This document shows positions 27,307-30,036 of a stretch of DNA of 48,057 bases, piece after piece. How positions within the stretch are numbered: position 1 is the first letter of the stretch; the number at the start of each line of letters is the position of its first letter. The notes under the pieces are model-generated. The model did no database searches and had not been told where the DNA came from. It saw only the letters and a list, made by a program, of their open reading frames with translations. The translations under genes were made by a program, and so were the position numbers. The DNA is from Caldilineaceae bacterium (GTDB lineage Bacteria > Chloroflexota > Anaerolineae > Caldilineales > Caldilineaceae): contig JAGRCP010000027.1 in the NCBI GenBank assembly GCA_020433455.1, positions 1 through 48,057 of the forward strand. Reading direction: 5' to 3'.

Positions 27307-28677
27307 TCACTGCTGCGCGTGTACGCCAAGATATTGCTGCAAGACCGCGCCGGCCGGACCGAGGATATCGTAGCTCTCCCAACCGCTGCTGGCAGCCATG
27401 GCGTAGACCGCGCCGCCCACCACGTAGTCGTCCTGGCGCATGGCCTCATCATACCACGCAAGCTGCTCGATGTATGCGCCCGGTCCCCACAGACCGTACC
27501 CGTTGTCGGCCCAGTAGCGCTGAAAGTCCTGCCAGCCCCGGGCGTCCAGAGGACCGGGGCGATTGGCCACCAGGCCGTCCACGCCCAGCTCGGTAAAGAT
27601 GAGGGGAACAGCCAGCCCCGCGGGCTTGAGATACTGATTGTATACTTTGCGATAACGCAGGGTCAGCCAGCCTTCATCGGTCGGACTAACGCCGGGATAG
27701 CGCCCCTGATCAGCGCGGCTGCTGTTGTAGTAGATGGTGGGCGCCGAATACTCGTGCAGCCCCAGCCAGCCGTTGTATTGCTGCACGGCCTGGACCGCGG
27801 GCAAGAAGTCGGGCCACAATTCCAGATGCGGCTGGCCCGTGCCGAAGTTGCCCACTACGCTGCGAATGCCCCGATCGCCCAGAAGGCGGGTACGCTCGGC
27901 TTCAAAATCGGCCAGGCGCTTCATCTGTTCGGCGTCGCCGGCCACCGGTTCATTGTACGATTCCCAGCCGTCAAATGTCTCCCGCCGCACGGAATCATCG
28001 GCAATAGGCAGGAGGGTCTCGACAAAGCGTCGGGCTTCGGCCATGGGATCAAAGTCCGCCAATTGAAGCTGGGGCAGATCAATGCGTCCGATCAGGGTGG
28101 CAGTGGGCGCAGCCTGCTTCATCTCCCGGGCAAAGTTGCGGTCCAGCTCCAACGTCTTAATGACCGCGGCCCCGCCGGCCGCCAGCACTTCGATCACCTG
28201 GGGGTGGTTGCGCGCCACAAAGAGGCCCAGCTTGCTGGCCGGGCCGGGCGGAAAGGGCGTGGCCTGGGGCGTAGGCGTTGCGGTAGGCGGACGCGGGGTA
28301 GCCGTCGCTTCGGGGCTCGGGGTATCGGTCGGGCTGGGCGGCGTGGGCGTAAGCGTCGGCTCGGATCCGGCCACGGCAAACGCATCGGCTCCATCCGCCT
28401 GATTGCGCACCAGCGGCATATAGACATGGCGCCCGGTACGAAACGGCGTCCCCAGGGGAGACGCGGGCAGGGGCGAATTGCCGGGCGTGGTCAAGGGCGA
28501 TGCAGGCGGATTGCGCCGCCCGCACGCGGCCAGCGTCAAGCTCATCGCGCCCGCAGCAGCCCGGCGCAAAAAACGGCGCCGACTCCAGGGGGAAGCAGGC
28601 TGGACAGCGTCATCCGCCTGGGAATCGGCGCGGGGATCGGGTTGCAGCGTTTCGTGCTCGTTTTCATGTTCTGTCAT
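27307..28677 (-). CDS. Exported glycoside hydrolase-like protein (Tat lipoprotein)
   Basis: 456 aa. The N-terminus has a twin-arginine motif SRRRFLRR (~residues 32-39), then a hydrophobic stretch ending in a lipobox LAAC, so Tat export and lipid anchoring are likely. Residues ~105-150 are a Thr/Pro-rich linker typical of Chloroflexota surface proteins. The rest looks like a TIM-barrel clan A hydrolase: WESYNEP would carry the acid/base Glu and FTELGVDG the nucleophile. The substrate is unknown. AGGA lies 7 nt before the ATG. Confidence 0.78.
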
Positions 28678-28953
28678 GTGCGTATCCTATCATCCGCCCG
28701 CTTCTTCACCAAGTAGGGCCCCTCTCATTGCCGGATCAGGCAGTCGGCGCACCCAACGGCGCATTCAATAGACGGGCGAGGCAACCGGCCGGGTTCCGCA
28801 AGCGGAGCATTTTACGGACGATTGGGCCCGCTATGGGCGCATCCCCGCCGCCGCCCGTAGCCCGCTTCACCGGCCTTACACGGCAACTGACCGCTTATGG
28901 CATAATGACAGACGCGGTAATGCATCAATTTCATTCATTGAAAGGAGTACATC

Positions 28954-29217
28954 ATGACCAAGCATCAGGTCAGCATCGAGTATTGCGTACAGTGAAACTA
29001 TACGCCGCGCGCCGTCAGTTTGGCGGCGGAACTACTTGACAAATTTCGCTTCAACATCAGCGATTTGACCATGCGCCCTTCCAGCGGCGGCCGTTTTGAG
29101 GTGATCGTGGATGATGACCTCATCTACAGCAAGAAAGCATTGGGCCGTCACGCCGAAGCGGGTGAAATATCCGATCTCTTCCAGAAGAAAACCGGCCTGG
29201 AGCCGGTAGAGGCGTAA
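28954..29217 (+). CDS. SelW/SelT/SelH (Rdx) family selenoprotein with in-frame UGA
   Basis: 87 residues if TGA at 28993-28995 is read as selenocysteine (residue 14). The translation begins MTKHQVSIEYCVQ-U-NYTPRA, giving the CxxU redox motif where cysteine relatives have CxxC. Downstream, in the same frame, GGRFEVIVDDDLIYSKKALG matches the second half of the thioredoxin-like SelW fold. AAAGGAG lies 6 nt before the ATG. A hairpin at 29005-29029 fits a bacterial SECIS. A strong terminator follows at 29231. Family members are small thiol oxidoreductases. The selenocysteine machinery is not in this window, so a nonsense-mutated pseudogene cannot be excluded but is unlikely given the intact signals. 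Confidence 0.9.
29005..29029 (+). promoter_or_regulatory. Candidate bacterial SECIS element
   Basis: CCGCGCGCC (29005-29013) and GGCGGCGG (29022-29029) form an eight-pair stem with one bulged G and an 8-nt apical loop GTCAGTTT. The loop starts with G and begins 18 nt after the UGA, within the spacing known for bacterial SECIS hairpins. It lies inside the coding sequence, as bacterial SECIS elements do. Confidence 0.75.
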
Positions 29218-29230
29218 GAGTGCGCAGGCA

Positions 29231-29269
29231 AAAAGCCGGGCTTCTGAACGAAGCCCGGCTTTTCTTTAC
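29231..29269. terminator. Bidirectional rho-independent terminator
   Basis: AAAAGCCGGGCTTC (29231-29244) and GAAGCCCGGCTTTT (29250-29263) form a perfect 14-bp stem with a TGAAC loop and a T-rich right side; A residues on the left make it usable from the minus strand. It lies between the convergent selenoprotein and NIF3-family genes. Confidence 0.93.
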
Positions 29270-29283
29270 CGACAGCAGATACG

Positions 29284-30036
29284 TTACATATCCGTGGGCA
29301 AATCGACGAACTCAAAGCTCAGGCCAAACTCGTCAACCAGATGACGTCCCAGAGCCTGGACGCCTACCGTCTCTGTTGTGTAGTGGCCGCCGTAAATGAC
29401 ATTGATGCCTGCGTTCATGGCCTCATAGTACTGAGCATGGCTCGTCTCGCCCGTGATAAAGGTGTCGCAGCCCAAAGCCGCGGCCTGTTCAATGTGATCG
29501 GCCCCGAAGCCGCTGATAATGCCCACCTTGTGGACGATGCGCGGCCCGTGGGCCTGAACGGTGCGAATGGGGCCGACCGCCTGCTCGAAGTGGTCGACCA
29601 GGTAATCCAGCTTGACGCCGCCGGACGCCTCGGCCAGCACGCCCAGCTTGACGCCGTTCACCTCGGCCCACCAGTCGGTAATCTCCAGCCCCAGCCGACG
29701 CGCCAGCTCGGCATTGTTGCCCACCGCGGGATGGGCGTCCAGGGCCAGATGCGCGGCATAGAGATTGACGCCGCTCTCCAGGTAGGCGCGCACCAGGCGG
29801 CCGTAGCTCCCGGCAATCCGCTTGGGCGGTCCCCAAAAAATGCCGTGATGGACCAGCAACATGTCGGCGCTGCGGTCTATGGCCGCCTCCACGCAGGGCA
29901 ACTGGGCATCGACCGTGCCCACAATGCGCTGAACGTCATCCCGCCCCTCGATCTGCAACCCCTGGGGACCATAATCCTTGATTTTACCGATGCCAAGATA
30001 ATCGTTGAGATAGTCCACCAATTCCGAACGCTTCAT
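29284..30036 (-). CDS. NIF3-family dinuclear metal-binding protein
   Basis: 250 aa. The metal-site motifs are all visible: [27 protein letters not shown] and GGHYTTE, typical of the NIF3/YbgI/YqfO family (often labelled GTP cyclohydrolase I type 2 homologue, an activity poorly supported). It is a cytoplasmic hexameric toroid in homologues. GAGGAG lies 7 nt before the ATG. It follows rsmE by 27 nt, at the end of the coaE-dnaJ-prmA-rsmE gene string. Confidence 0.93.

Follow-up and report, generated by a model that had tools for sequence, protein, structure and literature searches.

A predicted SelW-like selenoprotein gene with an in-frame TGA and a conserved downstream hairpin in a Caldilineaceae bacterium

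We examined a 48,057-nt stretch of a Caldilineaceae bacterium (assembly GCA_020433455.1, contig JAGRCP010000027.1), hereafter the window. On its forward strand lies a short gene (table 1) that starts with ATG (28954–28956), ends with TAA (29215–29217) and contains a single in-frame TGA. When the TGA is taken as a residue, the 87-aa product begins MTKHQVSIEYCVQU..., placing a CxxU redox motif, CVQU, close to the N-terminus (residues 11–14). At this locus, calling of open reading frames under translation table 11 returned only a 65-aa frame opening with TTG (29020–29217), and the same list holds a 179-aa frame, read differently (28500–29039), that overlaps the start of the gene. An ORF finder using the standard bacterial code therefore cuts selW short, and the present analysis settles the gene. 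An earlier note on this DNA had described a good Shine–Dalgarno site before the ATG and a SelW-fold protein obtained by reading through the TGA; both were recovered here, the first as AAAGGAG and the second as a protein of the full 87 residues that matches Rdx/SelW profiles. A promoter scan found none. Rfam search at gathering scores and ARAGORN gave no matches in the window, and the tRNA-Sec of this genome sits on another contig.

Table 1. Features of the selW locus, in window coordinates.
Feature	Position	Strand	Basis
Divergent 456-aa lipoprotein-like protein, upstream, no Pfam match	27307..28677	-	conserved neighbour
Shine–Dalgarno-like AAAGGAG, 6-nt spacer to ATG	28941..28947	+	read from sequence
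selW-like gene, 87 aa, Sec at position 14, CVQU, stop TAA	28954..29217	+	translation, Pfam, NCBIfam
In-frame TGA, most likely selenocysteine	28993..28995	+	translation; same codon is TGA in relatives
Putative SECIS upper stem-loop: GCCGUC (29011–29016), loop AGUUU (29017–29021), GGCGGC (29022–29027)	29011..29027	+	pairing, compensatory changes
Perfect 14-bp inverted repeat AAAAGCCGGGCTTC-TGAAC-GAAGCCCGGCTTTT, probable terminator	29231..29263	.	read from sequence
Convergent DUF34/NIF3 protein, downstream	29284..30036	-	conserved neighbour

The genes on either side are shared by some relatives. Among 109 loci (each of at most about 3 kb, some genomes being counted twice), the upstream 456-aa protein was present in 41 and the downstream NIF3 protein in 26, so that part of the group has inherited the locus as a unit. 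The inverted repeat between selW and the NIF3 gene, which is absent from the list of a consensus scan, is probably a two-way terminator common to these convergent genes.

Assignment to the Rdx/SelW family was made on the protein with the TGA read as a residue. Residues 5–75 matched Pfam PF10262 (Rdx) with 76.2 bits (E = 2.4e-21, cut-off 22.6), and NCBIfam TIGR02174 gave 56.3 bits (cut-off 34.2). The protein also passed the curated cut-off of NF041051 (SelTWH_Campy, SelT/SelW/SelH family (seleno)protein), if barely (90 bits against 88); the name of that family points to Campylobacterota, whereas the window gene belongs to Chloroflexota. Its best relatives of solved structure are Rdx proteins, 3dex (E = 6.6e-14) and 2fa8 (E = 7.8e-12), and together with 2p0g, 2obk and 2oka these cysteine forms match it over most of residues 1–75. 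The earlier note had proposed alignment with cysteine-form Rdx proteins as a check, and in both alignments shown the U pairs with the second Cys of a C-T-Q-C motif, CTQC standing against CVQU with Cys in place of Sec. Unlike the window gene, the cysteine forms need no SECIS element. The combination of a CxxU motif with a thioredoxin-like fold suggests redox chemistry of the thiol/selenol type.

We then asked how the TGA behaves in relatives. The query consisted of the segment after the U only, so the TGA was not directly selected. Examination of the closest 80 of 164 relatives (one genome per species) revealed TGA at the Sec codon in 80/80 loci. The nearest of these came from records titled Caldilineaceae, and record titles among the best 80 of 164 also include Chloroflexi/Chloroflexota, Gemmatimonadota, Actinomycetota, Acidobacteria, Pirellulaceae, Armatimonadota, Calditrichaeota and Proteobacteria. 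The SelW family thus retains Sec across a wide range of phyla. In a separate panel of 61 genomes (its own and 60 relatives), 40 genomes carried 46 Rdx matches in all, 39 of them with one TGA (in 39 genomes) and seven without. Of the seven, L021, L024 and L041 were read, and all three have Cys; in some relatives such a cysteine form is additional to a TGA-bearing Rdx gene, in others it is the sole Rdx. Two of those read (L024 in genome G013, CAEC; L041 in G022, CADC) lie in longer open frames of 409 and 327 aa, perhaps as domain fusions. In G022, where the only Rdx lacks a TGA, the best tRNA-Sec match scored 46.5 bits.

The same panel was scored for tRNA-Sec with a threshold of 60 bits, set post hoc in the score gap between 61.5 and 53.4 (the Rfam gathering score is 47). 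At this line, tRNA-Sec and TGA-bearing Rdx occurred together in 37 genomes, tRNA-Sec alone in 15, TGA-bearing Rdx alone in two (G003 and G010) and neither in seven, a co-occurrence with a Fisher p of 0.008 when relatedness is ignored. TGA-bearing Rdx was thus absent from 15 of the 52 genomes having tRNA-Sec.

The candidate SECIS hairpin lies inside the coding region, its stem starting 15 nt after the UGA. The earlier note had proposed a hairpin here with a G at the start of the loop; the hairpin is real and conserved after the UGA, but the G is the second base of the AGUUU loop, not the first. Taken by itself, the hairpin of the window is weak evidence because 8–29 of 200 shuffles equal it: 8, 25 and 26 of 200 folded as well as the native sequence (-16 kcal/mol) in three folding windows, and 29/200 in a fourth, longer one. 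We therefore turned to an alignment of 112 sequences, made up of 85 loci from the scans and 27 TGA-bearing loci; 75 of the 112 are distinct, and 72 of the distinct ones are cellular. The 72 distinct cellular sequences share a register that pairs columns 19–24 with columns 30–35 around a loop of columns 25–29. In this register 368 of 432 cells are paired, compared with 139 and 151 after sliding by one. The second loop base is G in 72/72 sequences and the third is U, giving a loop GU, in 60/72; the outermost pair, 19–35, is weak (34/72).

To tell RNA constraint from coding constraint, we redrew synonymous codons 2000 times, using codon frequencies pooled over the part of the genes that follows. 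The five inner pairs were complete in 58/72 sequences (null 10.7 ± 2.9, maximum 23), wobble-to-wobble positions were paired in 129 of 144 cases (null 60.6 ± 5.8) and the loop GU of 60/72 compared with 9.3 ± 2.8; on all three measures the observed value was attained by 0/2000 draws. Because the 72 sequences are related they do not count as independent trials; even so, the effect is large. A second set of 50 sequences, the window and 49 that we chose from the 80 relatives, was used for covariation. Here the 29011–29027 register had 86.0% of its cells paired, with compensatory changes in five of six pairs and a covariation score of 0.320, against 0.187 ± 0.016 for shuffled alignments and 0.063–0.205 for slid structures; 0/500 shuffles were as high in pairing and 0/500 in covariation. 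Pair 21–33 was C-G in 34, U-A in eight and A-U in one of the 50, through compensatory changes at third positions, so the RNA signal can be read from third-position covariation. The SECIS candidate of the earlier note is thus real, but it is the 29011–29027 register that is conserved and not the single-sequence optimum, 29005–29029. This minimum-energy register, with 66.7% of cells paired, was equalled in pairing by 74/500 shuffles and in covariation by 16/500, and was rejected. RNAalifold returned a consensus of only three pairs (-0.28 kcal/mol) on the same alignment; our reading of the hairpin is based on the counts for named structures and on the synonymous null. These comparisons indicate that the hairpin is conserved beyond coding needs.

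Machinery for selenocysteine was sought in the genome's own assembly (5.25 Mb, 172 contigs, 98.97% complete, 3.91% contaminated), in which the window is contig C85. This revealed tRNA-Sec on C83 (72.2 bits; anticodon tca (UCA) by ARAGORN), SelA on C143 (540 bits) and SelB on C4 (307 bits, cut-off 242; a 639-aa ORF covering profile positions 2–350 of 581). SelD lies on C88 (330 bits) and has one in-frame TGA in the context MVECAG-U-ASK; the machinery genes are thus all on contigs other than that of the window. The earlier note had held that the organism encodes Sec machinery, and had tied its reading to selB and selC in particular; selA, selB, selC and selD were all found, with the scores given above for SelB and tRNA-Sec. 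The alpha subunit of formate dehydrogenase (FdhA), on C108 (724 bits), likewise has one TGA, in the context NCSRA-U-HAPT. As in selW, in both SelD (L018) and FdhA (L153) the active-site TGA is followed by a hairpin, read from the sequence as GTCGCA-GGTCG-TGCGAC in SelD and, 12 nt past the TGA, as GTCGCC-GGTCT-GGCGGC in FdhA. Counting selW, this genome has at least three genes with a TGA at a known or expected Sec site and a hairpin after it. Nine matches to peroxiredoxin AhpC/TSA (PF00578) and four to CMD (PF02627) in the same genome showed no in-frame stop.

The reading frame, the family, the conservation of TGA and hairpin and the presence of the machinery were computed here, and they point very strongly to a gene that stands alone and encodes a bacterial selenoprotein of the SelW-like type (Rdx, thioredoxin fold), in which Sec would be inserted at the UGA by way of a SECIS hairpin. 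A single TGA at a Cys-like codon is also the expected look of a pseudogene, that is, of a cysteine-form Rdx broken by a change of TGC or TGT to TGA. Given that the same codon is TGA in every one of the 80 relatives examined (the best 80 of 164), that 39 of 61 genomes have a TGA-bearing Rdx, that the remaining frame is open and that the hairpin is kept beyond the coding requirement, we regard this as hardly conceivable. The inserted residue cannot be told from the frame alone, and the UGA might instead be decoded as Trp or Gly under another code, or be read through by a near-cognate tRNA; this is very improbable in a genome with a complete Sec set, where the long adjoining genes are open under table 11, Cys is aligned with the U in the two solved-Rdx alignments shown, and SelD and FdhA have their TGA at active sites.

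It might further be argued that coding constraint and codon usage produced the hairpin incidentally and that Sec is inserted through another signal, as the weak single-sequence energy and the weak RNAalifold consensus would allow. The synonymous-codon null, unmatched in 2000 draws, and the compensatory third-position changes at pair 21–33 leave this explanation with very little probability. For the SelW-like selenoprotein, we infer the interaction of SelB with the hairpin, the insertion of Sec and the thiol/selenol redox function from known biology. In bacteria, SelB carrying GTP and Sec-tRNA(Sec) binds the SECIS loop and delivers Sec at the UGA. Ribosomes would accordingly start translation at 28954, the host's SelB-GTP-Sec-tRNA(Sec) complex would bind the hairpin through its GU-bearing loop, Sec would enter at UGA 28993 to form the CxxU redox centre, and translation would terminate at 29217.

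The SelW selenoprotein family has been known since 2005, and the Caldilineaceae gene is a further member; viewed on its own, it is unremarkable. The available part of the 2005 report describes 48 SelW-like genes from the Sargasso Sea that combine CXXU with SECIS elements of the bacterial type; it takes the motif to suggest a role in redox chemistry and notes an observed interaction of the protein with glutathione (PMC1088965). Excerpts of later papers list ten SelW-like selenoproteins in bacteria and, for Chloroflexi, three families of selenoproteins (PMC1794560, 2006) and treat SELENOW-like proteins (PF10262, CxxU) as a high-confidence prediction (PMC13188914, 2026 review). As far as these three excerpts go, the known proteins have the same domain, a CxxU in which Sec is the second of the two redox residues and, right behind the UGA, a SECIS whose small apical loop contains a G, as in the window; we see no mechanistic difference, the window gene being the Caldilineaceae member. 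A literature search found no paper describing SelW from Caldilineaceae or Anaerolineae.

Scans of IMG/VR yielded five loci first and 14 with a second profile, the five contigs recurring among the 14. On 14/14 contigs the Rdx/SelW gene (L136–L149; for example L136:5968-6198 and L141:5968-6177) shows CxxU encoded with a TGA, and its hairpin loop reads AGUUU. The inner five pairs of the hairpin are complete in 10/14, and four of the five are present in L136, L137, L147 and L148. Seven of the proteins were tested and matched Rdx with 60.7–77.6 bits. Neighbouring genes were tested on six contigs, revealing baseplate wedge proteins (L051/L136), ssDNA-binding, UvsX-like and DnaB-like replication proteins (L141), an endonuclease family (L053/L138), PhoH and ThyX families (L139), and NifU- and NifS-like families (L054/L147; NifS was named by eye, its PHROG having no function), while the single neighbour protein tested on L145 had no match. 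Genes for baseplate, UvsX and ssDNA-binding proteins typify T4-like phages; PhoH, ThyX, NifU and NifS alone are not decisive for phage origin. Nine phage rows formed one group (support 97/96); the tree was built on 83 columns and carried few-columns and long-branch warnings.

No viral record examined contained a tRNA-Sec above cut-off, the records being fragments. Two tblastn searches of 50,697 INPHARED phage records with phage SelW proteins gave no match, so this lead rests solely on the IMG/VR contigs. A literature search on phage selenoproteins found no paper; what is available of PMC8310308 treats pox viruses, and the accessible part of PMC9402790 reports that viral sequences were few or absent in families besides RNR II, plastocyanin and Cu-Zn SOD. 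On balance we favour, with some reserve, the view that the Sec-bearing SelW family moved into tailed phages, perhaps once, with its own SECIS but no tRNA-Sec above cut-off in the records examined, so that the virus would need a Sec-making host. If the phage-contig selenoprotein genes are true, the dependence of some phages on selenium-using hosts becomes testable. On the 216-kb contig L147 (3516–7290), a NifS-like gene is followed by a NifU-like gene, a gene for a 108-aa protein, SelW with its TGA and a gene for a 335-aa protein that by eye resembles glutamine synthetase; the whole run is possibly a sulfur/selenium and nitrogen cassette.
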